In this document: piece by piece, positions 507 through 62,063 of the stretch
How the letters are laid out: the number at the start of each line of letters is the position of its first letter
Numbering within the stretch: position 1 is the stretch's first letter
Assembly: GCF_004339015.1 (NCBI RefSeq)
Contig: NZ_SMFQ01000003.1
Location: forward strand, 1,178,001 to 1,242,000
Length of the DNA: 64,000 nucleotides
Direction: 5' to 3'
Source: Cocleimonas flava
GTDB lineage: Bacteria > Pseudomonadota > Gammaproteobacteria > Thiotrichales > Thiotrichaceae
Translations under genes and position numbers: made by a program
The notes under the pieces: generated by a model
What the model was told of the DNA's origin: nothing
Databases searched by the model: none
What the model saw: the letters and a program-made list of their open reading frames with translations, nothing else

Positions 507-536
507 GTCACCCCCCTACTTTGAGGCCGTTTTTTT
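507..536 (+). repeat. C6TACTT repeat, copy 1
   Basis: Exact core CACCCCCCTACTT followed by TGAGGCCG and a run of seven T. It lies between two minus-strand genes, directly in front of the start codon of the PLP enzyme, so it terminates no plus-strand gene. Confidence 0.9.
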
Positions 537-592
537 ATCGAAAACAATATATAGAAAAATAGATATTAACCGATTTAAGAAACAGTCTGCTT

Positions 593-820
593 CTAACTAT
601 CATCAATTAGCAACGCCACCAACCGTCTAACGATTGGCCCAACGATGAGCACAGTAGGAAAGGCAACTAGAAAAGCGAAGCTCCAGGCCTTCAACCATTT
701 GATTAATATGCCATCAATAAGTCCGACATTGAAAAGGGTAATGACGAATGACATAAAGCATGACATTAAAAGTGCCATGAAAAATGAAAATACCACGGCT
801 GTATATTTTTTATGTATCAA
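593..820 (-). CDS. DUF2798 family small membrane protein
   Basis: A 75-residue protein with two hydrophobic segments (about residues 8-33 and 45-65) and the pattern MIHKKYTAVVFSFFMALLMS...FNVGLIDG...WLKAWSFAFLVAFP typical of DUF2798. Its function is unknown. It is predicted to sit in the inner membrane with a short positively charged N-terminus in the cytoplasm. It lies between two C6TACTT repeats (copies 1 and 2) as a one-gene unit. Identification comes from the whole-length pattern. Confidence 0.85.
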   Translation of the reverse strand: MIHKKYTAVVFSFFMALLMSCFMSFVITLFNVGLIDGILIKWLKAWSFAFLVAFPTVLIVGPIVRRLVALLIDDS

Positions 821-965
821 AACTGAAATCCTGTTTATTCAGATGTACTTGATCTGAGAACATGAAAAGAATGATCAAGGATTACATCTGAAGTGTATAA
901 CAAAGGCATATAAACATTTCACTGAGATGTTTAGGATGCAATGTTAATAAAATATTTTTTAGTAG

Positions 966-994
966 GTCACCCCCCTACTTAGGGGCACTTTTTT
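966..994 (+). repeat. C6TACTT repeat, copy 2
   Basis: Exact core, then AGGGGCAC and T6. CCCC and GGGG can pair. It lies between two minus-strand genes, eight bases beyond the stop of the CobT-like gene. Confidence 0.9.
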
Positions 995-1002
995 GGAGAC
1001 TA

Positions 1003-2751
1003 TCACTTCATTCGTGATTGCCACATTTTCAAAATATCATTGAAGGTGGCGTTATTCAGATTATCGTCCAAGTGTAAAATGGTGTAGTTACGATAGTAAA
1101 CACTCAGGTCTAATTCAACACCTAATCCAAAAATTTCCAGATCAGGCTGTTGTTCATAATTACTGATAACATCTTTTAAATGATTATCCAGATAGTAAGG
1201 ATCATTGGCGATATTGGTGGCAGAATCCATCGGGCTGCCATCTGAAATCACGGTTAGAATTTTCTTTTGTTCGGGACGTTTCAATAGTCTTTGTGCCGCC
1301 CATGTGATCGCTTCGCCATCCACACCTTCGCGGAATAAGTCCACTTTCATCAGTCCTGATATAGAATTACGCGCCTGTTTCCAGGTTTGTTCTGCGTCTT
1401 TGTAGATGATGTGATTGGTTTCATTGAGGCGACCAGGATTTTTCGGCCTGCCTTGTTTGATCCATTCTTTCATCGGTTTGCCACCACTCCAGTTGCCCGT
1501 GGTGAAGCCAAGGATTTCGGTTTTAATACCAGAGAGATCAGCCGCACGTGCAAACACGTCGAGCATAATCGCAACATTTGCCGCGTGCTGTTTCATCGAA
1601 CCTGAACAATCAACCAGAAAACTCAACACACAATCGGATTGTGGACGCTCGCGTCGATCTTTGAAGATGCGTTTTTCCGTGGGTGACGCGATTAACTGCG
1701 ACAAGCGTCGACCATCGATATAGCCTTGTTCTTGCGCATAATTCCAGTCATCGTATTCAGGCGTAGCAAACAGAAATTTAAGCTGACGCGCCAGCCGTGG
1801 CATATTGATGCCTTGTTTGCTAATGCTGTCATCCAGATGACTGCGCAAGGCTTTTAACTGCATTGGCCTAACCAGTTTATCTGCCTGTGAAATCTTGTCG
1901 TATTCGGTGGTGAATATTGAATAAACCGCATCATTTTCCAACCACGATTTACTCTCGCCACTGCTGATCATGAATACATGTTCATCGTTTTCGTCAAAGT
2001 TAATCAGTAGCTTGAATTCTGGCGCTTCGATTTCTTCCAGAATCGTATCGACGTCTTTTTCTTCTTCGTCCTCGTCCTGATTCTCATCACGCACCATGCT
2101 GTTAAATTGCTTCGCTAGTTGCAAAGCGTATTCGGCGAATTTCTCCTGATCGGTGAGGTTTTGCTTCATGCCGTAGAGCTGCTTACCAATCATGGGCGAG
2201 ATGCCTGCGCGCGTCGCTTCCAATAGATCTTCGGTTTCTTCGGTGACCGACACATTATTAAAGCGCGACCAGCATACCTGGGCCAGTACGTAGATAAGCA
2301 AACCGATACTGCTCTCGGTTAAACCAGAATGATGATAACGCAGTGACCATTCTTCGAAACGATGCAGCATATTGCTGCGCATGCCTTTGTAGGTTTCTGG
2401 CACTAAGGATTCGACGCGTAGCTGTTCGAGTAATTCGAACATAAAACGCTCGAGTCTTTCATCCGGTAACAGCGAATGATGCAGTGCTTCGTCAGTGAAT
2501 TGATAGCGTAAATTAATACTATCGGCTACACCTCGCAAAGCGACAAAACTGTCTTGCACAAGATCAGACTGAATATGACATGCATACAAAGGCACACGCT
2601 GTTGATTGTGGTAGAGAAATGGGCCACGGAAATACAAGCTTGCATCTTTGGTATAACCACGCACCACACCACCGCACAGTTCTATGGCTTTTTGCTGTTG
2701 CTGGCTCTTGGTTTGAGCAGTTGTTTCATCATGATCTGAAAGGTATTTCAT
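1003..2751 (-). CDS. CobT-like VWA-domain protein
   Basis: A 582-residue protein resembling the CobT subunit of aerobic cobaltochelatase. It has an alpha-helical N-terminal half, a very acidic linker (about residues 222-235), and a C-terminal von Willebrand A domain with the MIDAS motif DCSGS at 381-385 and a later SDGSP loop. It lies 50 bases downstream of a CobS-like AAA+ gene. In the known system CobS and CobT form an ATP-driven chaperone that works with CobN to insert cobalt. No cobN or other cobalamin gene is in this window, so the pair may serve another metalloenzyme or act as a MoxR/VWA-type chaperone. The family is secure; the substrate is unknown. Confidence 0.88.
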   Translation of the reverse strand: MKYLSDHDETTAQTKSQQQQKAIELCGGVVRGYTKDASLYFRGPFLYHNQQRVPLYACHIQSDLVQDSFVALRGVADSINLRYQFTDEALHHSLLPDERLERFMFELLEQLRVESLVPETYKGMRSNMLHRFEEWSLRYHHSGLTESSIGLLIYVLAQVCWSRFNNVSVTEETEDLLEATRAGISPMIGKQLYGMKQNLTDQEKFAEYALQLAKQFNSMVRDENQDEDEEEKDVDTILEEIEAPEFKLLINFDENDEHVFMISSGESKSWLENDAVYSIFTTEYDKISQADKLVRPMQLKALRSHLDDSISKQGINMPRLARQLKFLFATPEYDDWNYAQEQGYIDGRRLSQLIASPTEKRIFKDRRERPQSDCVLSFLVDCSGSMKQHAANVAIMLDVFARAADLSGIKTEILGFTTGNWSGGKPMKEWIKQGRPKNPGRLNETNHIIYKDAEQTWKQARNSISGLMKVDLFREGVDGEAITWAAQRLLKRPEQKKILTVISDGSPMDSATNIANDPYYLDNHLKDVISNYEQQPDLEIFGLGVELDLSVYYRNYTILHLDDNLNNATFNDILKMWQSRMK

Positions 2752-2801
2752 CTGGTTCTTTTCTGATTGTTTTCTTACTTTTGTCAGATTTAATCTACTT
2801 G

Positions 2802-3776
2802 TTATTTACTTGTAGGCGAAAGATGCATATACGATTCTTCCAGCTCTTCATCGAAACAACGTTGGAAATATTCAGCCACTAATGGCTTTTCATCGTCACT
2901 GCATTTATTCAAGAATGCGAAACGGAAAGCCGTTTGAATGTCTTTGAATATCTGGAAGTTTTCAGCCCAGGAGATTACCGTTCTTGGTGACATCAATGTT
3001 GATAGGTCACCCACAGCAAAACCATTACGCGTGAGCTGCGCCATGCTAACCATCGCATTCAAAAGCTTTTCATCAGTAAATTCAGGCACACGCGCTTTGA
3101 TGATATTCACTTCATCATCATGCGGTAAATAGTTTAACGAGGTAACAATATCCCAACGGTCAAGCTGTGCGTGATTGAGCATTTGCGCACCGTGATAAAG
3201 ACCGTTTAAGTTGCCTTGGCCAATGGTGTTGGATGTCGCAAACATACGGAAATTTGGATTTGGACTAATCACCTGATTTTGATCTAGCAATGTAAATTTA
3301 CCATCACGCTCAAGAATGCGTTGGATAACGAACATAATGTCTGGGCGACCCGCATCGTATTCATCAAAAATTAATGCAACCGGACGACGTAATGACCAGG
3401 GAATAATTCCTTCCTGAAATTCGGTAACCTGCTGGTTATCGCGAATCACGATGGCGTCTTTACCTACTAAATCCAGACGACTAATTTGTCCATCCAGATT
3501 TAAGCGCACGCAAGGCCAGTTTAGGCGTGCTGCGACTTGTTCGATATGCGTCGATTTACCCGTGCCGTGCAAACCCTGAATCATCACGCGACGATTAAAA
3601 GCAAAACCCGCGATAATTGCCAAAGTTACATCAGCATTAAACTGATAAGCTTCGTCAACAGCAGGAACGAACTCACAAGGTTCGCTAAACGCAGGGACTT
3701 TCAAATGGCTATCGATATTGAAAGTGTCACGAACCGATACAGAAAGACTCGGTTCTAAATCTAGAATATCACTCAT
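2802..3776 (-). CDS. CobS-like AAA+ ATPase
   Basis: A 324-residue AAA+ ATPase of the MoxR/CobS group. The Walker A motif GLHGTGKST is at residues 68-76 and Walker B LIFDEYDAG at about 135-143, followed by a sensor region (MFATSNTIGQGNLNGLYHG). The N-terminal segment before the ATPase is short, as in CobS. It is the first gene of a two-gene unit with the CobT-like VWA protein. MoxR-type ATPases act with VWA partners in metal insertion or complex maturation. No strong ribosome site is visible, but GAG lies upstream of the ATG. Confidence 0.9.
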   Translation of the reverse strand: MSDILDLEPSLSVSVRDTFNIDSHLKVPAFSEPCEFVPAVDEAYQFNADVTLAIIAGFAFNRRVMIQGLHGTGKSTHIEQVAARLNWPCVRLNLDGQISRLDLVGKDAIVIRDNQQVTEFQEGIIPWSLRRPVALIFDEYDAGRPDIMFVIQRILERDGKFTLLDQNQVISPNPNFRMFATSNTIGQGNLNGLYHGAQMLNHAQLDRWDIVTSLNYLPHDDEVNIIKARVPEFTDEKLLNAMVSMAQLTRNGFAVGDLSTLMSPRTVISWAENFQIFKDIQTAFRFAFLNKCSDDEKPLVAEYFQRCFDEELEESYMHLSPTSK

Positions 3777-3855
3777 AAAACTAACTCAAAAAAATAAATT
3801 GAAGCACTACTATAGCTCATTTTTGCGTATTGTCAGTTTAAAAAACAGAGTTAAA

Positions 3856-3883
3856 GTCACCCCCCCACTTTAGGACTATTTTT
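3856..3883 (+). repeat. C6TACTT repeat, copy 3
   Basis: One-base variant of the core (CACCCCCCCACTT, T to C), then TAGGACTA and T5. It lies between two minus-strand transcription units. Confidence 0.8.
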
Positions 3884-4069
3884 CCTATCTTTTTCTCTTT
3901 ACTCCGATAACTTTGTATCGTCAGGCATTCTGATTGTCTTTTCTCAAGCACATGATTTATTTTGATATTTTGAAAAAATAACTCTCTAGAGTATTAGGCA
4001 TTATCTAGAGAGTCATCGTTTGATGATATGTTTTAAGAGAAGATTGGGAAATTATTGAAGCTTATATAC

Positions 4070-5431: not shown

Positions 5432-5441
5432 TGTTTAAACC

Positions 5442-6585: not shown

Positions 6586-6953
6586 AAAAATTCCCTTACT
6601 GCTTTATTATAATGATTCTAAGTTCGAATTTTATAATGTATTGGAAATGTGCAAAAAATATGAAAGCTAAACGTTAGGATTAATTTAATGTGATTAATCA
6701 GAGCGTGATAGGTACTTGATTAGCTAAGAAGTTGATTGGTTAGCGGTAAAAATTGAGTATTTTGTTTTGATTTTGTCACCTCCCTACTTACCAAGAGATT
6801 GCCATTTCGTTTTGTGAAATTGGCAATTCATGTATACCAAAAGCTTAATACTAGCTCGCCTGCAAAGCGACAACTAGCATGTAGCGTCATTGAGAGGGGG
6901 TTCTGCTTCTATTGACCAAAAAGCTAATGTCTCTAATCAATTGATATCGTAAA
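6586..6953. other. Intergenic region with a degenerate C6TACTT copy and a hairpin
   Basis: This stretch holds the upstream region of the YHYH lipoprotein gene, a degenerate C6TACTT copy at 6775, and an imperfect inverted repeat at about 6800-6830 (TTGCCATTTC ... GAAATTGGCAA). I see no gene in it. Confidence 0.5.
6775..6798 (+). repeat. C6TACTT repeat, copy 4 (degenerate)
   Basis: Core CACCTCCCTACTT (one C to T), with no G-arm and no T-run. It lies between two minus-strand genes. It is recognisable only by its 5' half, so it may be a decaying copy. Confidence 0.6.
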
Positions 6954-8573: not shown

Positions 8574-8991
8574 AAGAACAATTATCCAATTATGTTTTTC
8601 TGGTTCTTATGTTCTGGAAAAGCCACCTCCCCACTTTGAGGCGTTTTTTCCGTTAACGACATACTTACTGCTGTATAGCCAGCTAATACGCTTAGCTGGC
8701 TTGACAACACATTTCTAATCGATTGATTTACTTCACTTTATTTTTGTAAATATTAAAAAAGCGGCAGACTATTTGATTTAAACATTTAAAAAAAACTAAT
8801 AGCCTCATAAATACAACTTTATACTTAAATTTCAATAACTTAAATAGTATATATTAATTTACCTTCTATCCTCATAAATTAAATTTCGGTACAGGATAAA
8901 AAAAGAGGAGTACATTAAAGGAATATATACTGATTATTAACATTCAATTTTACACACATTATTAAGTACCACTCAAAGAGAGGAAGCAATA
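8574..8991. other. Intergenic region with repeat and perfect hairpin
   Basis: It holds C6TACTT copy 5 and a perfect 10-bp hairpin at 8677-8701 (AGCCAGCTAA, five-base loop, TTAGCTGGCT). The rest is very AT-rich leader of the CBS-domain gene. No gene was seen. Confidence 0.6.
8622..8649 (+). repeat. C6TACTT repeat, copy 5
   Basis: Variant core CACCTCCCCACTT, then TGAGGCG and T6. Upstream AAAAGCC can pair with GGC and the T-run. It lies 48 bases after the yceH-like stop and could end that transcript. Confidence 0.8.
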
Positions 8992-14010: not shown

Positions 14011-14045
14011 TACGCCATAAAGCGAGATGTTCCCCATCAAATAAA

Positions 14046-14073
14046 GTCACCCCCCTACTTTAGAGGGGTTTTT
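14046..14073 (+). repeat. C6TACTT repeat, copy 6
   Basis: Exact core, then TAGAGGGG and T5; CCCC/GGGG can pair. It lies between convergent genes and could end the 13615 gene. Confidence 0.9.
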
Positions 14074-14088
14074 GGATTTTTTTCTGTA

Positions 14089-15585: not shown

Positions 15586-15801
15586 GGCTGCTATACCTGC
15601 TGTTTCATTGATGAGTGTGTTGACTAATTAATAGCATACAGTAAATACAACTAAGGCTTTAGAACCAGTCTCTGATTATTCATTGACCGAGTATTCTTTG
15701 ACCTTATTTCTGATTGTCCGCCTGATTGTGTCTGGTTTGAGTCTGCAGGCTGGGTAATGATAATAGCTAAGAACCGATGACAACCGTCTGTAAACGATAA
15801 A

Positions 15802-15830
15802 TACCCCCCCCTACTTTCAGCCTGTTTTTT
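15802..15830 (+). repeat. C6TACTT repeat, copy 7
   Basis: Eight C instead of six (TACCCCCCCCTACTT), then TCAGCCTG and T6. It lies between divergent genes, so no plus-strand gene ends here. Confidence 0.8.
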
Positions 15831-16933: not shown

Positions 16934-17265
16934 ATTGTTTTTATACTTAACTATAATGCAATGACGATGCCAACTTTTCTTTAATAACGCTATCTTATTG
17001 TTTTAAATGTATTTATTTGTTTTGTTGGTTTTTTTACATCATTATCTTTATCGTCACTAGCTGACAATTTCTCTATGTTTGTGTCACACATCCACATTTT
17101 GTCAGTCCTGTGTCATTGATTTGGTCATTTATTCGATCATCATTGACTCATTAATAGTGGTAGAGAAAATTCAGCGTATTCAGAATGATCAGCTAGTGAG
17201 AAAAACTGAGTAACAATGATATGCAATATGAAGTATCAGAAGGTATTGCGAAAGATAAACGATAA

Positions 17266-17295
17266 GTCACCCCCCTACTTTGAGGCGTATTTTTT
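17266..17295 (+). repeat. C6TACTT repeat, copy 8
   Basis: Exact core, then TGAGGCGTA and T6. It lies between the two sRNA candidates, far from any plus-strand stop codon. Confidence 0.9.
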
Positions 17296-18763: not shown

Positions 18764-19105
18764 GTGTTTCCCACGATAAAAACGAAAAAACAGTTAGCTT
18801 AGTGCAAGTTTATGATGAAGTAACTAATTATTGTATATTTTAATACATGACTCTGTATTATTATCTCTTTCTTAATATATTCTTTGACTGATTTTAATAT
18901 GCGATTGAATTGAATAAGTGAAACAATTAAAAACCTTACGAGAAAAAGCGCTGTATAAATAGCTATAGTAATAAAAGACAAAGACCACAAAGATAATAGT
19001 CACCCCCCTACTTTAGGGCACTTTTTTACAGGTCAATTGTAAGATTAATTTTATAAACCAGAGAATAATAACGGCACAACTTATACCACCAAAAGCACTA
19101 TAACT
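18764..19105. promoter_or_regulatory. Divergent regulator/oxidase intergenic region
   Basis: AT-rich control region between the GlxA-type regulator and the oxidase. It carries C6TACTT copy 9 near the oxidase. No clear operator palindrome was identified. Confidence 0.45.
18999..19027 (+). repeat. C6TACTT repeat, copy 9
   Basis: Exact core, then TAGGGCAC and T6. It lies between divergent genes, 79 bases upstream of the oxidase ATG, so a terminator function would act on its leader. Confidence 0.9.
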
Positions 19106-21089: not shown

Positions 21090-21119
21090 AAACATTAAAC
21101 GAGTAAAGAAGTTACAAAA

Positions 21120-21148
21120 GCCACCCCCCTACTTATAACGGCTTTTTT
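21120..21148 (+). repeat. C6TACTT repeat, copy 10
   Basis: Exact core, then ATAACGGC and T6. Here AAAAGCC (just upstream) pairs with GGCTTTT, giving a terminator-like stem around the core as loop. It lies between convergent genes. Confidence 0.9.
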
Positions 21149-26641: not shown

Positions 26642-26820
26642 AGAAAAGGGCTAAGCCACACAAATTAATCGTTTTAAAAAACATCCCGATATCCTTTCAA
26701 TCATTCGTTAAAAATTGATTTTAACCAGCCAGATTTTCAATCACAAATAGCCTTGAATAAGGTCTAGGATTAATATTTGGGTTTTGCGAGAGTTTTGCTT
26801 TATTAAGACAATATATAATA

Positions 26821-26848
26821 GCCACCCCCCTACTTACAGGGGGTTTTT
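26821..26848 (+). repeat. C6TACTT repeat, copy 11
   Basis: Exact core, then ACAGGGGG and T5, so CCCCC/GGGGG can form a hairpin with a T-tail. It lies between two minus-strand genes. Confidence 0.9.
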
Positions 26849-26871
26849 GTTGTTTAAATTTACCAGGAACA

Positions 26872-31968: not shown

Positions 31969-32033
31969 TTGGTTTAGACAACCTAAAAGTCAGTGCTCTG
32001 GAAGCAAGCATTCTGGAAACAAGGATTTTTAAA

Positions 32034-32063
32034 GTCACCCCCCTACTTTGAGGCAGTTTTTTT
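32034..32063 (+). repeat. C6TACTT repeat, copy 12
   Basis: Exact core, then TGAGGCAG and T7. A near-perfect inverted partner of its first 12 bases (TAGGGGGATGAC) lies at 32081-32092, the only such partner I saw. Confidence 0.9.
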
Positions 32064-33658: not shown

Positions 33659-33710
33659 GTTATAGATGTTTCATATTTAATTGATTTTGATTTCATTATT
33701 TTATACTGAT

Positions 33711-33739
33711 GACACCCCCCTACTTTGGGGCACTTTTTT
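33711..33739 (+). repeat. C6TACTT repeat, copy 13
   Basis: Exact core, then TGGGGCAC and T6; CCCC/GGGG can pair. It lies between two minus-strand genes. Confidence 0.9.
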
Positions 33740-34946: not shown

Positions 34947-35006
34947 GAGCTCTCCTGCGGTTTTCATTAAAACATAAGACTACTCACTCAATAATAGTAT
35001 AAAAAA

Positions 35007-35033
35007 CACACCCCCCTACTTATAGGGGGTTTT
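35007..35033 (+). repeat. C6TACTT repeat, copy 14
   Basis: Exact core in a perfect hairpin CCCCCTA, loop CTTA, TAGGGGG, then T4. It lies between two minus-strand genes. This is the clearest terminator-like copy. Confidence 0.92.
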
Positions 35034-35067
35034 ATGTATTTTTTATTAACTTTTTATTAACCCTTAA

Positions 35068-36543: not shown

Positions 36544-36735
36544 TTCCTGTACTCCATATTTTTTAACCTCAAGATTTTTATCTCCTAGGCTTTTATCGTT
36601 TAAGTAGCTATCGTAATTCTTCAGATAACAGGGACAGGATATTCTGTTAATGTGACAATAAAATTAAATCTATGTGACAGTAATGTTTCAAGATTGATTA
36701 AATATCTAAAACGAATAATCTTTTTAAGAGAAAAT

Positions 36736-36764
36736 GTCACCCCCCTACTTATAGAGGTTTTTTT
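36736..36764 (+). repeat. C6TACTT repeat, copy 16
   Basis: Exact core, then ATAGAGG and T7. It lies between divergent genes, right upstream of the 36813 gene. Confidence 0.9.
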
Positions 36765-37613: not shown

Positions 37614-37667
37614 ACAAACGAATAAATAGTAATAGGACAATGCAACTGGGTGGTTATATTTTTATAA

Positions 37668-37696
37668 GTGCTCCCCCCTACTTTGGGGCGTTTTTT
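37668..37696 (+). repeat. C6TACTT repeat, copy 17
   Basis: Core CTCCCCCCTACTT (A to T), then TGGGGCG and T6. It lies between convergent genes. Confidence 0.85.
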
Positions 37697-37744
37697 ACAG
37701 GCATCTTATTCTCAAACTTTAATTCGAGAGCAAAGTTAAGCCAC

Positions 37745-38452: not shown

Positions 38453-38527
38453 AATTAACTCACTCCTTTAAAAGCAACTTTATTAATACTTAAAATCAAC
38501 ATATATAGAAATACTATAGACTAAATA

Positions 38528-38557
38528 TCACCCCCCTACTTTGGGGGCGTTTTTTTT
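38528..38557 (+). repeat. C6TACTT repeat, copy 18
   Basis: Exact core, then TGGGGGCG and T8; C/G arms can pair. It lies between two minus-strand genes. Confidence 0.9.
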
Positions 38558-39251: not shown

Positions 39252-39396
39252 ATACCCAGCCCTTATTGATTATTGATTAGTGATTTGTGAGTTGCATATT
39301 AAGCACAAACAAAGATCTCAAATGTGAATATTTCACAAAACTCTTGAATTTCCATCAAAATAGAAAATTAGATTGGTAGGCACTGAGATTAACTAT

Positions 39397-39426
39397 GTCA
39401 CCCCCCTACTTTGGGGCGTTTTTTTT
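39397..39426 (+). repeat. C6TACTT repeat, copy 19
   Basis: Exact core, then TGGGGCG and T8; CCCC/GGGG can pair. It lies between two minus-strand genes. Confidence 0.9.
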
Positions 39427-40162: not shown

Positions 40163-40491
40163 CTGGTATGGTTTATTTAATCACTCAGGTGATTTTTAAT
40201 TATTATGTCGGTGATAGTCTAAACATCACCTTGGGGTTTGGGTGCTTGGAATTCTATAGGATGTTGTGAAATGAAGAAACACTTTGAGGTAAATACGATC
40301 AACATTCAATCATAATCAGGAAATCATTTAAAACGACACCCCCCTACTTTGGCGCACTTTTTTATCAAATGGGGTCTTTATGCTTCAAACACTAAAGCTC
40401 TGTAGATCAGATAAAGGCAATGCAATCCAACCTACTACGCTACTTGATAAGGTGAGAACGTAACGTTTTAGGATTACTCAATTACAAAAAT
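40163..40491. other. Intergenic region with C6TACTT copy 20
   Basis: Upstream region of the parA-like gene and 3' region of the cyclase gene (both minus), with copy 20 in the middle. No other feature recognised. Confidence 0.5.
40335..40363 (+). repeat. C6TACTT repeat, copy 20
   Basis: Exact core, then TGGCGCAC and T6. It lies between two minus-strand genes. Confidence 0.88.
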
Positions 40492-42327: not shown

Positions 42328-42760
42328 ATGCTAATTATCTAAATGAAAACAAAGATGTTATTCCTAATATAAACGAATATTGTTTTAATTGTTGTTAAAT
42401 CGATTATATGCGGAAATTGCCAGTACCCTTATTAAGAAACCTCTGATCAAGTCCAATAATACTTAATTATATATGCAAAGCGGATTAGTTGAAGCACTAA
42501 CAATAAACATTGTGGATAAAACAAAACCTTAGAATTGAATCATTCATTGGTTGATAGTCTTACTATCCAAATCAGGCTAATAGATGATTAATAGGTCACT
42601 CCCCTACTTTTAGGCACTTTTTCTATTTATGTTAACACTAACCTACTTATTTCCATCTTATATCTGAATATCTGATAGTGGATCTTGGATATAGTGATTA
42701 GCTAAACTCGTAATATAATAATAAGGTTCGTAGAAATAAATTAATCAAACGAGTCTTAGT
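42328..42760. other. Divergent intergenic region with C6TACTT copy 21
   Basis: Separates the cyclase gene (minus) from the PhzF-like gene (plus). It contains copy 21 and AT-rich promoter-like sequence. No gene seen. Confidence 0.5.
42595..42622 (+). repeat. C6TACTT repeat, copy 21
   Basis: Core CACTCCCCTACTT (C to T), then TTAGGCAC and T5. It lies between divergent genes. Confidence 0.8.
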
Positions 42761-43630: not shown

Positions 43631-43637
43631 ATCAAAT

Positions 43638-43666
43638 TCACACCCCCCTACTTTTATGTGGTTTTT
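43638..43666 (+). repeat. C6TACTT repeat, copy 22
   Basis: Exact core, then TTATGTGG and T5. It starts 8 bases after the PhzF-like stop and could end that transcript. Confidence 0.9.
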
Positions 43667-43681
43667 CACTCAATAATAATG

Positions 43682-43836
43682 AAAACCACACCCTTCGGGC
43701 CGTCGTCGCAGAACTCCAACGTTGTCTATCAAGTAAATCCATGTACTTGACCTCATTTGAGGCAGTTCCGTTTAACTCACTGTTCTAATTCATTCCCGAT
43801 GAATTAGTCGACTGCGTTCGGCTAGGGTGGTTTTTG
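43682..43836. repeat. Palindromic element with nested hairpins
   Basis: The ends are near-inverted (AAAACCACACCCT and AGGGTGGTTTTT). Nested inside are CCTC-ATTT-GAGG and a perfect 9-bp hairpin CTAATTCAT-TCCCG-ATGAATTAG. There is no coding potential. It lies between convergent genes and ends in a T-run. Confidence 0.55.
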
Positions 43837-44777: not shown

Positions 44778-45187
44778 TTATATTTCCCTGTAAATTCGCT
44801 GTATTCAATACCCTATAAAGCTTCATAGACTTCATAAAACATCTATGACCCAATTGTATGCTTAGTATAAGCGGTTCAGATTGAATACTTTTAATCTTTA
44901 CAAAATCTTTACATAAGTGCCACTTGAAATGGTCTAGATACAAAAGAAGTTGAAGCAACGTGCTGAGTCTTCTCGCCACCTGAAAATAACTTCTTATAGG
45001 TCACCCCCCTACTTTGGGGCGTTTTTTTTACTATTAATTTTATTCGTGTTGTCGAATCGCGTTCCTTATCTGACCTAATGCGCTTGTACACACTTTTTAA
45101 TCGAGTAAGCAATTATTATCATCTCGATTACTGAAGAAATATGTAAAATATTCTAGAATCATTTTTTCTGTGATCTACGAGTTAAAC
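44778..45187. other. Divergent intergenic region with C6TACTT copy 23
   Basis: Separates the FrnE-like gene (minus) from the PhnA-like gene (plus) and includes copy 23. Open frames here are shadows without start signals. Confidence 0.5.
45000..45029 (+). repeat. C6TACTT repeat, copy 23
   Basis: Exact core, then TGGGGCG and T8. It lies between divergent genes, so no plus-strand gene ends here. Confidence 0.9.
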
Positions 45188-45751: not shown

Positions 45752-45756
45752 ACCAC

Positions 45757-45784
45757 TACACCCCCCTACTTTGGGGCACTTTTT
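45757..45784 (+). repeat. C6TACTT repeat, copy 24
   Basis: Exact core, then TGGGGCAC and T5. It starts 6 bases after the PhnA-like stop. Confidence 0.9.
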
Positions 45785-45790
45785 CTAGTT

Positions 45791-45934: not shown

Positions 45935-45983
45935 GATTCAGGCGATATCTGATCGTTTTGACAGATAACTTAGTTAGGTAAAA

Positions 45984-46012
45984 GTCACCCCCCTACTTAT
46001 GGGCACTTTTTT
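45984..46012 (+). repeat. C6TACTT repeat, copy 25
   Basis: Exact core, then ATGGGCAC and T6. It lies only 200 bases from copy 24 with a REPIN-like element between, and no gene. Confidence 0.9.
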
Positions 46013-50582: not shown

Positions 50583-50906
50583 ATGAAAACCATTGATTTG
50601 AGTGAGTTAAATCTTGAAGAACTGATTTTTCTTCATGGCGAATTACCCAAATATATTAACAAGGCGAGAAAGGCTGAAAAGCTTGCATTAAAGGAACAAA
50701 TGGAAGCGATGGCGGCTGAGGCCGGCTTTAGTCTGGATGAAATCGTGAATAATAAAAACAAAACCCAGATAGGATTTGTGAAAGCAAAATACAGAAACCC
50801 GGATGATTTCAATAAAACCTGGAGTGGCCGTGGCAAAAAACCCAAATGGGTTCAGGATTACATTGGAGATAAGGGCACTCTGGACGATTTATTGATTATT
50901 CTTTGA
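50583..50906 (+). CDS. H-NS family nucleoid protein
   Basis: A 107-residue protein: helical N-terminus (LEELIFLHGELPKYINKARKAEKLALKEQMEAMAAEAG), then the H-NS C-terminal DNA-binding motif KYRNPDDFNKTWSGRGKKPKWVQDYI. The family binds curved AT-rich DNA and silences genes. It is short compared with E. coli H-NS (137 aa), like the short H-NS-like proteins. It is followed by a tandem repeat and then dsbD. Confidence 0.85.
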   Translation: MKTIDLSELNLEELIFLHGELPKYINKARKAEKLALKEQMEAMAAEAGFSLDEIVNNKNKTQIGFVKAKYRNPDDFNKTWSGRGKKPKWVQDYIGDKGTLDDLLIIL

Positions 50907-50932
50907 TATATGATTTTCTAATCGTTTTTTAG

Positions 50933-51316
50933 CGACGATTCCTTACGGAATCTACGATGGACTTTAGTGAGCTTACCGTTTTGTTTTTTAAAACGAGTAA
51001 CTCAATTATTTGACTTGTCATTTCTGGCTTTTGGTAAGCGTTAAACTGATAAACCATCGAACTCCAAAATTAGTCGGCCTTGAATTTGATCATTGTACAT
51101 CGACGATTCCTTACGGAATCTACGATGGACTTTAGTGAGCTTATCGTTTTGTTGTTAAAACGAGTAACTCAATTATTTGACTTGTCATTTCTGGCTTTTG
51201 GTAAGCGTTAAACTGATAAACCATCGAACTCCAAATTAGTCAGCCTTGAATTTGATCATTGTACATCGACGATTCCTTACGGAATCTACGATGGACTTTT
51301 CTGGCTTTTGGTAAGC
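50933..51316 (+). repeat. Tandem 168-bp repeat (2.3 copies)
   Basis: Unit 1 (50933-51100), unit 2 (51101-51266, 166 bp) and a truncated third (51267-51316), starting CGACGATTCCTTACGGAATC. Each unit begins with a hairpin GATTCC-TTAC-GGAATC. The third unit lacks about 115 bases in the middle and joins straight to TCTGGCTTTTGGTAAG. Confidence 0.9.
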
Positions 51317-51324
51317 CTAGAAAA

Positions 51325-51354
51325 GCCACCCCCCTACTTTGAGCCGTTTTTTTT
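51325..51354 (+). repeat. C6TACTT repeat, copy 26
   Basis: Exact core, then TGAGCCG and T8. It directly follows the truncated tandem-repeat unit. Confidence 0.9.
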
Positions 51355-51762: not shown

Positions 51763-54222
51763 ATGTTAAAGAAACTTTTACATAGTGCATTTTCCCTAAA
51801 GTCACTAACATCACTTATTTTGCTGTTTGTATCATTGAATACATTTGCAGCAAACCCTGACGATTTATTACCGCCAGATGAAGCCTTCAGCCCTTCATTA
51901 TCGAGCAGTTCACCAGAGAGTTTAACCGCTACCTGGAATATCGCTGATGGTTATTATATGTACCGCAAGCGTTTCTCCTTCGAAAGTGAAACACCGGGCA
52001 TCACACTAGGCGAAGCCACATTCCCTAAGGGTAAGATTAAAGACGACCCGGGTTTTGGCAAAGTAGAAACGTATCGCAACAAAATCGCTGTGCAAATTCC
52101 GTTGATTCGAGATGCTTCTGTCTCATCGGCTACGGAACTGTCGTTAAAAACCAAGTCTCAAGGTTGTGCAGATATAGGGGTGTGTTACCCACCGCAAAAG
52201 AAAACACTAACGCTGAAACTTGCCACGTTACCTGCACCTGCAATGGACCCCATTGCCGCAGCCAAAAAACCTGGCGCACTTTCATTAACCGCGCCTGCGA
52301 ATGATGTTTTTACGCCGACGGCCTCTTCTTCTATTGCACCTATTCCTCTTTCTGACAAAGCACCCGCAGCAGGTTTAAGCCTTGCTGATGAGTTAGGCAT
52401 TACCGGACTTGATGCGCCCAATGAACCACTCCATCCCGATGAGGCGTTTGGTTTTGATCTGACTGCTGTCGACAAACAAACACTCAATGCCCGCTGGGAT
52501 ATCCTGGAAGGCCATTACCTTTATCAGCATAAATTCAAGTTTGAAATTATTGATCCTGCGTTTGGGGTGAGCTTACAAAAAGTATCGCTCCCTAAAGGAA
52601 AGGAAGAGCACGATCAGTATTTCGGCGATATCGTTATCTACAATAAACCAATCGATGTAAAACTACCTTTTACAGGCGAAACGGATGAAATAACCGTAAA
52701 GTCGAGCTACCAAGGCTGTTCTAAGTTGACTGGCATTTGTTACCCGCCTCAACATAAAACGCAAAAGGTAAGCCTTACGAATGCGCCTGCGGCTATTGCC
52801 TCTACAGATACATCGGCCAAGTCTAATGCAGGCGATAACAATTCGACAGCTACTGCAAATACTGTTGAAGCAACAAATGCAGTTGCAGCGACAACCAAAG
52901 TTTCTGCACAGGATGGATTTGTCAATAAACTACTGACTGATAGTTTTCTGGTGGTTTTGTTTACCTTCTTCCTTGCGGGTCTGGCACTGACGTTTACTCC
53001 GTGCGTATTCCCGATGATCCCTATTCTATCTGGCATTATTGCTGGACAAGGTAGCGATAACAGCACGCGTAAATCTTTCTTCTTATCGCTTTCTTATGTA
53101 TTAGCAATGGCTTCAACCTATGCCATTGTCGGCGTAATTGCGGCATTGAGTGGGGAAAATCTTCAGGTTGCCTTACAAAACCCCTGGGTGATTGGTGCAT
53201 TCGCAGGTTTGTTTGTTTTGCTATCGCTCGCCATGTTTGGCTTCTACGAATTACAAATGCCTGCGAGTATTCAGAGCAAATTAACCAATATCAGTAATAG
53301 CCAATCCGGTGGCAGTATGTTGAATGCTGGCATTATGGGCTTGTTATCTGCCTTGATTGTTGGCCCTTGTGTCACCGCCCCACTTATAGGCGCTTTAATT
53401 TATATCGCACAAACTAAAGATGTGGTGCTGGGTGGTTTGTCATTATTTGCACTCGGCCTCGGCATGGGTGTACCCCTTCTGATTATTGGTACTTCAGCAG
53501 GTAAGATTTTACCTAGAGCTGGCGCCTGGATGGATAAGGTAAAAGCTGGCTTCGGCATTATGATGCTAGCTCTCGCTATCTGGATGCTTGAGCGTATTCT
53601 TCCGATGACTGCGATTGTATTGCTTTCTGGCATTCTAGCGATCTTCACCGGTATTTACATGGGTGGCCTCGATGCACTGAATGAGACGAGTACCGGCTGG
53701 AAACGTTTCTTTAAAGCGTCTGGTTTGGTCACACTGCTCTATGGCGCAATGCTATTAATTGGCGCAGCGAGCGGCAATGGTAGTTTAATCCATCCTTTAA
53801 AAGGCAGCTTTGCAAGTGGTGGCTCATCCGTTGCAGCGGTTGAACAAAAGCTCGTCTTTAGACAAATTAAAGGCGTAGAAGGTCTTGACCAAGCATTAGC
53901 GCTAGCAAAACAGCAAGGGCAAACAGTGATGCTGGACTTCTATGCTGACTGGTGTATTTCTTGTAAAGAAATGGAGCACGGCACATTTACCGATTTAAAC
54001 GTGATTAATTCATTAAAAGAAACCGTATTGCTGCAAGCCGATGTCACACCGAATGATGACTTAGATAAAGCATTGTTGAAGAAATTCGGACTATTCGGAC
54101 CTCCGGGTATTTTATTCTTCGATAAAAACAGTAAAGAAAACCTACCATTCAGAATTGTTGGAGAGATGAAGGCTGATCCTTTTAATAATCATGTACAAGA
54201 ATTTTTAAAGACAGTTAAATAA
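51763..54222 (+). CDS. dsbD: DsbD thiol:disulfide interchange protein with duplicated N-terminal domain
   Basis: An 819-residue protein versus about 565 in E. coli. After a signal peptide come two tandem DsbD-alpha domains: the first ends SQGCADIGVCYPPQ, the second YQGCSKLTGICYPPQ, each with a Cys pair. The membrane domain (about residues 390-680) carries FTPCVFPMIP and GPCVTAPLIG cysteines, and the C-terminal thioredoxin domain DWCISCKEME has CxxC. It transfers electrons from cytoplasmic thioredoxin to periplasmic partners. The extra alpha domain is the unusual feature. A TlpA-like gene follows closely. Confidence 0.92.
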   Translation: MLKKLLHSAFSLKSLTSLILLFVSLNTFAANPDDLLPPDEAFSPSLSSSSPESLTATWNIADGYYMYRKRFSFESETPGITLGEATFPKGKIKDDPGFGKVETYRNKIAVQIPLIRDASVSSATELSLKTKSQGCADIGVCYPPQKKTLTLKLATLPAPAMDPIAAAKKPGALSLTAPANDVFTPTASSSIAPIPLSDKAPAAGLSLADELGITGLDAPNEPLHPDEAFGFDLTAVDKQTLNARWDILEGHYLYQHKFKFEIIDPAFGVSLQKVSLPKGKEEHDQYFGDIVIYNKPIDVKLPFTGETDEITVKSSYQGCSKLTGICYPPQHKTQKVSLTNAPAAIASTDTSAKSNAGDNNSTATANTVEATNAVAATTKVSAQDGFVNKLLTDSFLVVLFTFFLAGLALTFTPCVFPMIPILSGIIAGQGSDNSTRKSFFLSLSYVLAMASTYAIVGVIAALSGENLQVALQNPWVIGAFAGLFVLLSLAMFGFYELQMPASIQSKLTNISNSQSGGSMLNAGIMGLLSALIVGPCVTAPLIGALIYIAQTKDVVLGGLSLFALGLGMGVPLLIIGTSAGKILPRAGAWMDKVKAGFGIMMLALAIWMLERILPMTAIVLLSGILAIFTGIYMGGLDALNETSTGWKRFFKASGLVTLLYGAMLLIGAASGNGSLIHPLKGSFASGGSSVAAVEQKLVFRQIKGVEGLDQALALAKQQGQTVMLDFYADWCISCKEMEHGTFTDLNVINSLKETVLLQADVTPNDDLDKALLKKFGLFGPPGILFFDKNSKENLPFRIVGEMKADPFNNHVQEFLKTVK

Positions 54223-54829: not shown

Positions 54830-54927
54830 TTTAGATTTATTTTTTACTAAAAATGACGCCTGACAACCGATCTATCAACGGTTTCTGAATTAGATTAAAT
54901 TAAATAAGAGTTTCTTAAAATTATTGC

Positions 54928-54956: not shown

Positions 54957-54969
54957 TTCCCTCCTCTGA

Positions 54970-55046
<77 letters not shown>

Positions 55047-55084
55047 AATTCAGGAAAGTAACTATTTCGACGTTATTTTCATAA

Positions 55085-55116
55085 TAAAAAAGCCCCGTTT
55101 TAACGGGGCTTTTTTA
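55085..55116 (+). terminator. Terminator after tRNA-fMet
   Basis: Perfect hairpin AAAAAAGCCCCG-TTTTAA-CGGGGCTTTTTT. Confidence 0.93.
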
Positions 55117-55193
55117 TTATTTACACTACTAGAAAACTCAAGAAAACCGAACCAAGTAAGCTCGCGCCGACAAGGGAAACATAAGGAAGCATT

Positions 55194-55637: not shown

Positions 55638-55654
55638 AGGTTGAAAAAGAAACT

Positions 55655-57187: not shown

Positions 57188-57207
57188 ACCAAATAGAGGG
57201 TTAATAA

Positions 57208-60021
57208 ATGTCAGACATAATAGTAAAACAACTCGCCGAACTCATTGGCGCTCCAGTCGAAAGTTTATTACGACAACTTAACGACGCAGGAATCAGTGTT
57301 TCAGGCGCTGAAGACAGCATTACGGATGCGCAAAAGTTAAAGCTACTTGAATTTATTCGCACAGGTCAAGCGACTACAACTGAAGCTGCACCTAAGAAAG
57401 CGGGTGGAAAAATATCACTTAAAAGACGTTCTAGCAGCGAGATCAACGTATCTGGTGCTCAAGGTAAGACTAACGTCTCTGTAGAGGTAAGACGCAAGAA
57501 AAACTTTAGTCGATCAGCAACTGAGACAAGCAATGAAAGCGAAACCTCTAGCGCTGATATCGATGATTTAAATGCATCCGCGAATCGCACTAATGATCTG
57601 GCTGAACAGCTTTCTAACGAGAGAAAAGCTCGCGAAGACGCAATAGACAAGTCTAAAGCAGAACGTCAGGCGACCAGCGAACGCAAAGCGGAAGAAAAAA
57701 TAGAGCGCGACACAGCGAAAGAAACTGCGGAAACTACAGCAGAAGCACCTCAGGAAGAAGTTACTGAGACTGCCGTTGAACCTGAAGTAACAACCGAGAC
57801 TGTAGCAGAAGAGAGTACACCTACTGCTACAGAAGAAACGGCACCAGCGGAAACACCCGTTGCTGAAAAGACTGAAGAAGCTCCTGCAGAAGTTGCTCCT
57901 GTTAAGAAGAAACTTGAACTTCCAACAGATCCAAGAGAAAGACGTGAATTCCTTGCGAAACGCGCAAGAGATGAAGCTGCGGCGAAATTTAAGAAGCGCC
58001 CTTCTCGTCCGAAGCCAGTTCCTAAGCCTACACCAGCAAAACCTGCGGCTGCTCCTGCACCCGCTCCTTCACCTACTGCTAACGCAAATAAAGGTAAGAA
58101 GAAGCCGTTCCAGGGTCGTGGTGGAACACCAGGTGGACAGCTACATGTTAAAGAGGGTCTAAGCGGTCGTCGCAAGAAGAAAGGCAAACGCACCAGAAGT
58201 GTAAAAATTGAGCAATCAACAGAGCATGGATTCGTTGCACCAACAGAACCTGTAGTGCGTAGCATAGAAATCCCAGAAACTATCGTTGTATCTGAACTTG
58301 CTCAAATGTTATCTGTTAAAGGTGGTGACGTTATAAGAGCGATGATGGATATGGGCGTAATGGCTACTATCAATCAAGTGGTTGATCAGGACACCGCGAT
58401 ACTGATTGTTGAAGAAATGGGTCATGAAGCTAAAGCAGCAACCTCAGAAGAAGAGAAATCATCGACTGAAAACTTGCTTGAAGATACTAGCCAGTATGAA
58501 ACATTCTCACGCGCTCCTGTTGTTACAATTATGGGACACGTTGACCATGGTAAAACATCGTTACTTGATTATATTCGTGAAAGTCGCGTTGCATCAGGCG
58601 AAGCAGGTGGAATTACCCAGCATATTGGTGCTTATCAAGTAGCAACAGCGAATGGCGTTATCTCTTTCTTAGATACACCGGGTCACGCGGCGTTTACACA
58701 AATGCGTGCACGTGGTGCGAAAGCGACTGATATTGTTATTTTGGTTGTTGCAGCTGACGATGGCGTTATGCCTCAGACTGAAGAAGCGATTAAACACACT
58801 CGCGAAGCGGGAGTACCATTAATTGTTGCTATCAACAAGATAGACAAAGAGTCAGCAGACCCAGAAAGAGTTAAAAGCGAACTTGCAAAGTTTGAAGTTG
58901 TTGCTGAAGAATGGGGTGGAGAAGACGTATTTGCTAATGTATCTGCTAAAACAGGTGAAGGCATCGATGGTCTTTTAGAATCTATTCTTTTAGTGGCCGA
59001 AGTAAGAGAACTTAAAGCACGTAAAGACGGCCCAGCTAAAGGCACTATTATTGAGTCTAGCGTGGTAAAAGGACGTGGTGCTGTTGCAACTGTTCTGGTA
59101 CAGGAAGGCACACTTAAGAAAGGCGATGTAGTACTAGCGGGTTCTGAATTTGGACGTGTTCGTGCAATGACAGATGACCTTGGCAAGCCTATTACAGAAG
59201 CTGGCCCATCAACTCCGATTGAAATTCTTGGTTTATCAGGAACACCATCTGCAGGCGATGATTTAGTTGTACTAAAGAATGAGCGTAAAGCACGTGAGCT
59301 TGCAACGAAACGTCACGAGAAAGAACGTGAAACACGTTTTGCTGCTCAACAAGCGGCTAAACTGGACGCGATGTTCGAGAAAATGCAGGATGGCGAGAAG
59401 AGTACGCTTAATGTATTACTTAAAGCAGACGTTCAAGGCTCTCTGGAAGCAATCAAGAGCTCTTTAAATGCCCTATCTACCGATGAAGTTGTAGTAAATA
59501 TCATCTCTTCAGGTGTGGGTGGATTGAGTGAAACTGACATCAGCCTGGCGCAATCTTCAGAAGCCGTTATTATCGGCTTTAATGTACGTGCCGATGCATC
59601 TGCAAGAAGATTCGCACAAGAGTCTGACACTGAAATTCGTTACTACAGCATCATCTACGAACTAATTGATGATGTTCGTGATGCAATGAGTGGACTACTT
59701 AAGCCTGAACTACGAGAAGAGCTTGTTGGTATTGCAGAAGTTAAGGACGTATTTACAGGTTCTGGCTTTGGTAATATCGCTGGTTGTTTGGTTATCGAAG
59801 GCAAGATCAAGAAAGACCTACCGATTCGCGTATTACGTAAAGACGTGGTTATCTATGAAGGTTACCTCGAGTCACTTCGTCGCCATCAAGATGATGTGAA
59901 AGAAGTTGCGATGGGTACTGAATGTGGTATCGGCGTTAAAAACTACGATGACGTTCAGCCGGGCGATCAAATCGAAGTATTTACACGTACTGAAATTGAA
60001 AGGAAACTAGAGTCTAGCTAA
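57208..60021 (+). CDS. infB: Translation initiation factor IF-2
   Basis: A 937-residue IF-2. The N-terminal region is long, with an IF2_N domain, an Ala/Glu/Lys-rich charged linker (about residues 110-260) and a Lys/Arg-rich Pro segment. The GTPase domain carries [16 protein letters not shown] (G1), DTPGHAAF (G3) and NKIDK (G4), followed by C-terminal beta-barrels. It places initiator tRNA on the 30S subunit; the tRNA-fMet gene is just upstream of this operon. Confidence 0.97.
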
Positions 60022-60039
60022 GTCGCTAGAGAAACCGAT

Positions 60040-60429
60040 ATGCCTTACGATTATTCACGCACCGACCGTATTGGTGAGCAAATCAAACGAGAGCTTTCCA
60101 TGCTAATTCGCAATGAGATCAAAGATCCACGCGTTAGCATGGTGAGCATTCTTGATGTTGAAATCACCAAAGACCTTTCTAAAGCCAAAGTTTATTTTGA
60201 TGCATTGAATCAAGAAGAACACGAAGCTTGCGAAAAGGGATTAAACAATGCTGCAGGTTTTCTTCGCAGAGAATTAGGTCACGCGATTAAACTGCGTAAC
60301 ACCCCTTCCCTGACGTTCATCTATGATGATACGGAACAGAAGGCAAACGACCTCTCTGTTTTGATAGACAAAGCCGTTTCATCTGATCAAAAGTCATCTG
60401 ACAAAAAATCATCAGATAAAGAAGACTAA
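60040..60429 (+). CDS. rbfA: Ribosome-binding factor A
   Basis: A 129-residue RbfA: RTDRIGEQIKRELSMLIRNEIKDPRVSMVSILDVEITKDLSKAKVYFD and TPSLTFIYDDTEQ. A Ser/Asp/Lys-rich C-terminal tail (SDQKSSDKKSSDKED) is an extension. It aids late 30S maturation at low temperature. Starts 19 bases after infB. Confidence 0.95.
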   Translation: MPYDYSRTDRIGEQIKRELSMLIRNEIKDPRVSMVSILDVEITKDLSKAKVYFDALNQEEHEACEKGLNNAAGFLRRELGHAIKLRNTPSLTFIYDDTEQKANDLSVLIDKAVSSDQKSSDKKSSDKED

Positions 60430-60431
60430 CC

Positions 60432-61364
60432 TTGGCTAGACGCAAAGGTAATGACGTCGATGGCATTCTGCTACTCGACAAACCTCTTGGTAGAAGCTCT
60501 AACAACGCACTGCAAAAAGTACGTTATCTTTTTCAGGCTAAAAAAGCCGGACACACAGGAAGCCTCGATCCTTTAGCGACTGGCGTATTACCGGTATGTT
60601 TTGGCCAGGCCAGCAAAGTCACCCCCTATCTTTTAGATGCAGATAAAAGCTATCGCTGTACCGCTCAACTGGGAGTCACCACAACCACTGGTGATAAAGA
60701 AGGCGACGTTTTACAAGAACGCGAAGTCACTGGCTTTAATGAACAAGATGTAGAAGCGGTTCTAGCAACCTTCCGAGGCGCAATCGAACAAGTTCCACCA
60801 ATGTATTCTGCGTTAAAGCATAACGGTCAGCCATTATATAAATTGGCACGACAAGGAATTGACATCAAACGCAAACCACGTGATGTAACCATTCACGAAC
60901 TCGTGTTAATCGATAAAACTGAAGATTCCATCACTCTGGATGTAAGATGCAGCAAAGGCACCTATATCCGCACACTGGCACAAGATATTGGCGAAGCGCT
61001 TGGTTTTGGCGCGCATTTAAGCATGCTTCGAAGAACTCATGTATCACCCTTTAATTGTGACAAGCTTTATACCATTGAAGATATAGAACAACTCGCAGAA
61101 ACAGGGAAACTCGAAGAAGCTCTATTACCCATCGACACGGCTCTTCAGGAATTACCTAGCTTAAACCTTAGCGAAGAAGAAACCAAACTACTGCGCAATG
61201 GCATTAAGGTAAAAAAAGCAGATACACCTGATTCCGACATGATTAGACTCTATAACCAGAACAACACATTCATCGGCATTGGCAGACAGTCAAAAAATGA
61301 TAATGACGAGATTCAAATAGCTCCTCGCAGAATGATGAACACACACGAACCTTTATCTGAGTAG
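60432..61364 (+). CDS. truB: tRNA pseudouridine-55 synthase TruB
   Basis: A 310-residue TruB with a TTG start at 60432 just after the rbfA stop (start inferred from the N-terminus MARRKGNDVDGILLLDKPLGRSSN). The catalytic Asp is D46 in HTGSLDPLATGVLP. It modifies U55 in tRNA. A PUA-type C-terminal domain follows residue 240. Translationally coupled to rbfA. Confidence 0.94.
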   Translation: MARRKGNDVDGILLLDKPLGRSSNNALQKVRYLFQAKKAGHTGSLDPLATGVLPVCFGQASKVTPYLLDADKSYRCTAQLGVTTTTGDKEGDVLQEREVTGFNEQDVEAVLATFRGAIEQVPPMYSALKHNGQPLYKLARQGIDIKRKPRDVTIHELVLIDKTEDSITLDVRCSKGTYIRTLAQDIGEALGFGAHLSMLRRTHVSPFNCDKLYTIEDIEQLAETGKLEEALLPIDTALQELPSLNLSEEETKLLRNGIKVKKADTPDSDMIRLYNQNNTFIGIGRQSKNDNDEIQIAPRRMMNTHEPLSE

Positions 61365-61681
61365 TTTTAAGTAGTTAAGTAGCCAAGTAGTAGTCAAAAC
61401 AATAGACTAATTAATCAGTCTAAAACAGCGTAAATAAGCCCTTTAAGTCACCCCCCTACTTATAGCCCTTTTTTACACAAAGAATTAAGCAGAAGTAAGA
61501 AATTAAAAGGCTTACTTTGGTGCTTAGCGCGTGTTACAATGCGCCGTTTTTAGGGTAGTCAATATACAATTGAGGCTTGTTTCACTGAGCTAATAGGATT
61601 TTGACTACTTTTTTCAACCCAATCTACCCTGATATATTCATAAAATATACTTTGTAGGTACTTATCTGGAACTTAGGAACT
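61365..61681. promoter_or_regulatory. Intergenic/leader region of rpsO
   Basis: Contains C6TACTT copy 27, a candidate promoter (TTACTT at 61512, 17-base spacer, TACAAT at 61535), and an inverted repeat GTAGTCAA (61555-61562) with TTGACTAC (61601-61608) followed by TTTTTT. This looks like a leader with an attenuator-like hairpin before rpsO. S15 autoregulation is known in E. coli, but the structure here is not shown to be the same. Confidence 0.5.
61447..61474 (+). repeat. C6TACTT repeat, copy 27
   Basis: Exact core, then ATAGCCC and T6. It lies after truB, and could terminate the operon, although the next gene is in the same direction. Confidence 0.9.
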
Positions 61682-61951
61682 ATGTCTCTGAACGCAGAAA
61701 CTAAAGCGAAAATCGTTGCTGAATATCGCTTGTCAGACACTGACACCGGGTCTTCGGAGGTGCAGGTTGCGCTTTTAACAGCGAATATCAAGCATCTTAC
61801 GGAGCACTTTAAAATTCACAAGCATGATCATCACTCACGTCGTGGTCTATTGAGAATGGTTAACTCTCGTCGTAGCTTGCTTGATTATTTAAATCGAAAA
61901 GATTCAGCTCGTTATCAAGACCTTATTAAACGTCTCGGTATTCGTCGCTAG
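61682..61951 (+). CDS. rpsO: Ribosomal protein S15
   Basis: An 89-residue S15 in full length: [72 protein letters not shown]. Binds 16S rRNA in the 30S subunit. Followed by a strong terminator and the pnp gene. Confidence 0.98.
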
Positions 61952-61965
61952 ATTTAGAATACTTT

Positions 61966-61993
61966 AAACACCGCATCCGTGCGGTGTTTTTAT
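61966..61993 (+). terminator. Terminator after rpsO
   Basis: AAACACCGCA-TCCG-TGCGGTGTTT with a T-run. A perfect 10-bp stem. Confidence 0.93.
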
Positions 61994-62031
61994 TTCTGTA
62001 TCATGACTTAAGGCTGTTTACAAAAGTTAAT

Positions 62032-62063
62032 ACCCACCCCCCTACTTTGAGGCATTAATTTTT
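62032..62063 (+). repeat. C6TACTT repeat, copy 28
   Basis: Exact core, then TGAGGCATTAA and T5. It lies between rpsO and pnp. Confidence 0.88.

Follow-up and report, generated by a model that had tools for sequence, protein, structure and literature searches.

An intergenic 32-bp repeat of Cocleimonas flava with features of a DNA uptake signal

In a 64-kb stretch of the Cocleimonas flava genome (hereafter the window: contig C2, 1178001-1242000) a short repeat with the core CACCCCCCTACTT recurs in intergenic gaps. Based on our observations, we suggest, at roughly even chances, that this repeat is a sequence-specific recognition signal in double-stranded DNA, similar to the uptake signal sequences (USS) of Pasteurellaceae and the DNA uptake sequences (DUS) of Neisseriaceae, which is specific to Cocleimonas and evolves there as species dialects. 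By analogy, the element looks like an undescribed counterpart of the 'self' tags used for recognising DNA that has been taken up. The suggestion builds on the anatomy of the motif, its dialects, distribution, persistence and even spacing, on the lack of a pairing requirement and on the presence of comEC and dprA.

Anatomy, distribution and orientation of the repeat

A scan of the window for CACCCCCCTACTT allowing up to two mismatches gave 28 matches, 21 of them exact and all on the plus strand, where 0.5 would be expected by chance. This bears out the counts of an earlier, sequence-only reading of the window, which had also described all 28 as intergenic copies. In this respect it has to be corrected, as the match at 53373 (two mismatches) lies within the dsbD open reading frame (ORF) and its counterpart in the sister species is simply the conserved gene, which identifies it as a chance coding match. 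With this match and the one at 6777, which is devoid of the GGC/T-tract half, set aside, about 26 convincing copies remain (Table 1).

Genome-wide, the exact core occurs 721 times in 4.49 Mb (10 contigs), 529 times in forward and 192 times in reverse orientation, and the reversed word used as a control does not occur at all. The motif was not found in the viral contigs searched, nor was the core string found in a literature search. When a 29-base version of the element was searched for outside the source genome, 'Uncultured Cocleimonas sp.' was the only match.

Anatomy, placement and orientation were calculated on stretches covering ~35% of the genome. The 13-base core proposed by the sequence-only reading is real, but it is part of a longer conserved unit: the 233 exact copies aligned share 32 bp, WAAGY-CACCCCCCTACTT-WNRGGCNN-TTTTTT, where conservation stops sharply at -5 and +26 relative to the beginning of the core, and the T-tract is present in ~96% of exact copies. 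Exact copies also outnumber those with a single mismatch (236 versus 87). No compensatory pairing was found between the arms of the unit; the strongest couplings join adjacent bases, which is as expected for readout by a protein or through DNA shape. Solo units, which constitute most of the copies, fold weakly (z ~0.3 to -1.4). The ~14% of sampled units that form inverted pairs do so at fixed spacings, mostly 40-43 bp for tail-to-tail pairs, which are near-perfect palindromes of 60+ bp, and mostly 26-27 bp for head-to-head pairs. Inverted pairs of ~60-70 bp are found in the source genome (G000) and in G002 and G010, and their arms agree at the variable positions as well.

Only 24 of 310 copies (~8%) lie inside predicted ORFs and 286 outside, though 83% of the sequence is coding. 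Gene 3' ends are favoured: among gaps of 100-200 bp, classified by simple ORF calls, a copy is present in 54% of convergent, 23% of tandem and 14% of divergent ones. The counts per 20 kb are under-dispersed (variance/mean 0.63), so the copies are spaced more evenly than at random.

The dnaA gene is located at 0.969 Mb of contig C1 and a dif-like site at 0.117 Mb of C2; contigs C3 and C4 were treated as whole arm pieces because each keeps one skew sign throughout. The C-rich strand of unpaired copies is on the lagging strand in 195 cases and on the leading strand in 59 (p = 4e-18). The majority strand flips beyond the origin (6:9) and beyond the terminus (1:5), though these counts are small, and close to the origin the bias drops (26:17, against 169:42 elsewhere, p = 0.009). 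The replication arm predicts the strand of the element (logistic coefficient 1.20 +/- 0.15) and the local GC skew adds nothing to this prediction, therefore local skew was rejected as the direct cause of orientation. Between tandem genes, the preferred strand of the element is the same for both gene directions (36:16 and 57:13).

The sequence-only reading had maintained that the repeat always has the same orientation, irrespective of the genes, and had argued from this for a link to replication and against a simple terminator. The independence from gene direction holds, and with it the argument against a terminator. A constant orientation is true of the window; in the whole genome the elements are biased rather than locked, and the window, with its unbroken plus-strand run, lies at the favourable extreme of a bias of roughly 3:1. 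The link to replication persists in the same weaker form, as a bias according to arm. The pattern that had been named as contrary to that reading, equal strands that follow the upstream gene, was looked for genome-wide and the outcome is intermediate: the strands are unequal, not gene-linked and arm-biased.

Composition alone predicts that 58% (intergenic bases), 72% (four-fold sites) or 75% (third-order Markov model of the core) of copies should have the majority orientation, compared with 77% observed. There may be a global compositional pull of 58-75% on the strand, and the link to replication, which is real as a correlation, may be largely passive.

Persistence and dialects in related genomes

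In the sister genome G007, whose InfB protein is 94% identical, every testable copy is kept at the orthologous place and in the same orientation, and no clean empty site was found among these copies. No enrichment of target-site duplications was detected either, and a transposition footprint was rejected on this ground. Directional insertion, which the sequence-only reading had considered, is not supported by these results. At five sites both 60-bp flanks have diverged to the level of unrelated DNA (0.48-0.50), while the cores are 98% identical. As the core is kept where its flanks have turned over, something maintains the unit itself.

The spelling of the element differs between species. The CACCCCCCTACTT form is used in G000 and G007, GACACCCCCC[TC]ACTT in G003 and G008, GTACACCCCCC[AT][CA]CTT in G006, and CCACCCCCCCTCTTTTTCGATGATTTGTA / CCACCCCCCCTCTTTTTCG in G010; G002 has ACCCATCCCCCCTGTTTTTnATATATTTTT / ACCCATCCCCCCTGTTTTT and G009 a close relative of it. 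All dialects share the same layout, in which a box of 6-7 C is followed by T maxima at ~+3..+6 and ~+13..+16 after the C-run, so that the two T-tracts are one helical turn apart. The units of the ACCCATCCCCCCTGTTTTTnATATATTTTT dialect in G002 and G009 have no G-rich arm at all, which excludes a hairpin as the function common to the dialects. The best single case of positional conservation across dialects is the truB-rpsO gap: a copy of varying spelling follows truB in G000, G007, G003, G008, G006 and G002 (in the latter, copies of its own dialect).

Few or no copies are present in G001 and G004 (a handful each) and in G005 (none). In 51 genomes from other genera of the family, the architecture pattern was matched 0-3 times and its reversed control not once, and no comparable over-represented C-box word was found in the stretches of these genera that were examined. 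With respect to strand, among the contigs listed, the copies of G006 look consistent and those of G009 (~600 pattern matches) mixed. A strand test of the other dialects against the skew of each stretch was noisy, since local skew is governed mainly by the direction of operons.

Genes with the Y1_Tnp domain (PF01797; IS200/RAYT-like, where RAYT stands for a tyrosine transposase associated with repetitive extragenic palindromic, REP, sequences) are present in G001, G002, G004, G005, G007, G009 and G010, i.e. in genomes with few or otherwise-spelled elements, while the genomes of the CACCCCCC dialect are without them, save G007.

The uptake-signal interpretation and its alternatives

In two bacterial families, Neisseriaceae and Pasteurellaceae, the use of uptake signals for self-recognition is established. 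The USS of Pasteurellaceae consist of a strong core and two 3' AT-rich segments with spacings of roughly one helical turn, they form subclade-specific types, perfect copies exceed near-perfect ones, their spacing is more regular than random and some are close inverted pairs at gene ends (PMC1626085); the AT tracts facilitate uptake (PMC7811141). The Cocleimonas element likewise bears a core and two T-rich segments a turn apart, and shows dialects, regular spacing and inverted pairs. Dialects and inverted pairs are also what it shares with the DUS of Neisseriaceae, whose species dialects differ at few positions within one taxonomic group and whose inverted pairs are linked to terminators (PMC3630211). 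DUS lack flanking AT-tracts, are common in genes and have no orientation bias (PMC1626085). The predominance of perfect over single-mismatch copies has been described for both USS and DUS (PMC1626085). Over-representation, an excess of perfect copies, dialects, the core with its two T tracts and the competence machinery (comEC in 11/12 genomes, dprA in 11/12, both in G000) are all found here.

From these features we infer a receptor, a function in uptake, a drive that maintains the copies and a source of the residual strand bias, which might act together in the following way. A type IV pilus or competence receptor would contact the C6-7 box and the adjoining bases, and the two same-face T-tracts, one helical turn apart, would let the DNA bend or melt for drawing in. 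If tagged DNA of the same species is taken up and recombined preferentially, the tags could spread and be maintained at many sites by biased gene conversion. Most of these sites would be at the 3' ends of genes, where a signal of 32 bp is least costly. Close inverted pairs would form perfect hairpins and may be co-opted as terminators. The orientation bias would come partly from the composition of the leading and lagging strands, and any remaining bias could stem from strand-specific incorporation of single-stranded DNA at the fork.

Several observations weigh against the uptake-signal interpretation. The density of the element (~0.16 per kb) is about six-fold lower than the ~1 per kb of USS and DUS, and its core with the C6-7 box is unrelated to that of USS. 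The competence of Cocleimonas is putative, and comEC and dprA do not discriminate carriers from non-carriers, being present also in the nearly copy-free genomes G001, G004 and G005. Between different dialects positional retention is not significant (6/14 versus 7/31, p = 0.29), and the regularity of the elements could come in part from an even distribution of the intergenic gaps themselves. The receptor of DUS, ComP, is known, whereas that of the Cocleimonas element is only proposed. Finally, known uptake signals have many copies within genes and no chromosomal orientation bias: 65% of H. influenzae USS lie in ORFs (PMC2346458), and neither USS nor DUS are biased with respect to the chromosome (PMC1939737, PMC1626085), in contrast to the nearly always intergenic and replication-biased element. 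As it departs from USS and DUS in these two features, we call the element uptake-signal-like and not a proven member of the class.

If the uptake-signal interpretation is correct, the genus, one of marine sulfur bacteria, would provide a third independent system of this type, with several readable dialects. As the motif is almost missing from at least three sister species, the origin of a signal and the switching of dialects could then be followed in a natural experiment. Its restriction to intergenic regions and its replication-linked orientation are absent from the known systems and would offer a test of drive via strand-specific incorporation of single-stranded DNA.

A different possibility is that the copies belong to a mobile repeat similar to REP sequences or to short miniature inverted-repeat transposable elements (MITEs), i.e. 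one that is very short and non-autonomous, is mobilised in trans, often as an inverted pair, and inserts between genes with a preference for the lagging strand. Such families are 20-70 bp long, intergenic, species-specific, present in hundreds of copies and contain inverted pairs. The element resembles them in all these features, and its strand bias, the low positional conservation between dialects and the perfect inverted pairs with arms matching at variable positions point in the same direction. We nevertheless consider this origin unlikely. The element has no obligatory palindrome or target duplication, no insertion polymorphism was seen, most copies are solo, and cores persist where flanks have turned over; its weakly folding, non-covarying units do not form the imperfect palindrome with a GTAG-like foot that is typical of REP sequences. 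Moreover, the Y1/RAYT transposase was undetected in G000, G003, G006, G008 and G011, all of which are rich in CACCCCCC-type copies. Mobilisation of the RAYT/IS200 type was rejected, since among genomes of this dialect only G007 encodes the transposase.

The element might also be bound by a protein that organises the chromosome or is associated with the fork, and its effect would then vary with its direction relative to replication; such a site would follow the logic of Chi or of the FtsK-orienting polar sequences (KOPS) and have the form of a nucleoid-protein site. Chi and KOPS are G-rich on the leading strand, and the strand bias of Chi is ~75%; the element agrees with them in both the G-rich strand and the degree of bias, and its even spacing and the dependence of its orientation on the arm, over and above local skew, speak for such a role. 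We regard it as quite unlikely, however, as composition alone explains most of the bias, which is weak near the origin, the strands of G009 are mixed among the contigs listed and the sampled inverted pairs cancel their own polarity. Furthermore, dialect turnover within one genus is unusual for such sites, and a 32-bp bipartite intergenic unit differs from a short oriented word (an 8-mer) that is found mostly in genes and recognised by FtsK or RecBCD.

A polar variant of the uptake signal, in which incoming single strands of defined polarity would pair more readily with the exposed template of the lagging strand, with the result that one orientation would accumulate on each arm, seems improbable to us. 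If true, this would add a new family to those of Neisseriaceae and Pasteurellaceae, and with it the first uptake signal that is oriented by replication.

Intrinsic terminators of an unusual type, made of a C-rich arm, a G-rich arm and the T-tract, are very unlikely as an explanation: enrichment at gene 3' ends, the T-tract itself and the long hairpins that inverted pairs can form agree with it, but solo copies fold weakly, it is the loop that is conserved rather than the stem, the arms show no compensatory change, the T-tract is oriented independently of the gene and the G-rich arm is missing in G002 and G009. Termination was therefore rejected as a general function.

Copies in the window and neighbouring sequences

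Table 1. Core matches in the window, with the extent of the complete unit where there is one
Position	Strand	Description	
504..535	+	element copy, exact core 509-521	
963..994	+	element copy, exact core 968-980	
3853..3884	+	element copy, core variant CACCCCCCCACTT, the commonest variant genome-wide	
6777..6789	+	core-like match without GGC/T-tract half; decayed (at best) or chance	
8619..8650	+	element copy, 2 core mismatches, flanks complete	
14043..14074	+	element copy, exact core	
15799..15830	+	element copy, core CCCCCCCCTACTT	
17263..17294	+	element copy, exact core	
18996..19027	+	element copy, exact core	
21117..21148	+	element copy, exact core	
26818..26849	+	element copy, exact core	
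32031..32062	+	element copy, exact core	
33708..33739	+	element copy, exact core	
35004..35035	+	element copy, exact core	
36733..36764	+	element copy, exact core	
37666..37697	+	element copy, core CTCCCCCCTACTT	
38524..38555	+	element copy, exact core	
39394..39425	+	element copy, exact core	
40332..40363	+	element copy, exact core; retained at orthologous site in sister genome G007	
42592..42623	+	element copy, core CACTCCCCTACTT; G007 counterpart has CCCCCCCCTACTT	
43636..43667	+	element copy, exact core; second repeat (B, ~43654-43740) directly after	
44997..45028	+	element copy, exact core; retained in G007	
45754..45785	+	element copy, exact core; retained in G007	
45981..46012	+	element copy, exact core; retained in G007	
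51322..51353	+	element copy, exact core; retained in G007 despite unrelated 60-bp flanks (0.54, 0.48 identity)	
53373..53385	+	non-element, 2-mismatch chance match in dsbD (51763-54222)	
61444..61475	+	element copy, truB-rpsO gap; same gap filled in G007, G003, G008, G006 (variant core)	
62030..62061	+	element copy, weak T-tract, in apical loop of hairpin upstream of pnp	

One copy in the window is interrupted by a second repeat (B) of ~90-95 bp, TTWTGWGGTTTTT...AAAACCWCACCCTTCRGGYCGTCGTC...CCAACGTTGTCTACG...CTTCGGCT, which lies inside the element just 3' of CTACTT (43654-43740). G007 has this second repeat at two sites (loci L133 and L135), the counterparts of window position 61449 and of L081 18668, where the element is uninterrupted in G000. 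Similar GTCGTCGTC tails occur after elements in G006. The second repeat may target the element.

Upstream of pnp there is a conserved hairpin (GGCTGTTTA...TAAACATCC; window 61980-62070), and the copy at 62035 fills its apical loop. In G003, G004 and G006 the hairpin is present with other loop sequences and without the element.

Tandem units of ~200 bp (CGACGATTCCTTACGGAATCTACGATGGACTTT...) occupy window positions ~50900-51320 and are absent from the matching gap of G007. A CRISPR-like array (clustered regularly interspaced short palindromic repeats) with dozens of copies of the repeat CGGTTCATCCCCACGAGTGTGGGGAACAT was noted in G009 (L170, near 9800). Directly downstream of the copy at 61449, the window contains the Rfam S15 (rpsO) leader at 61630-61738.

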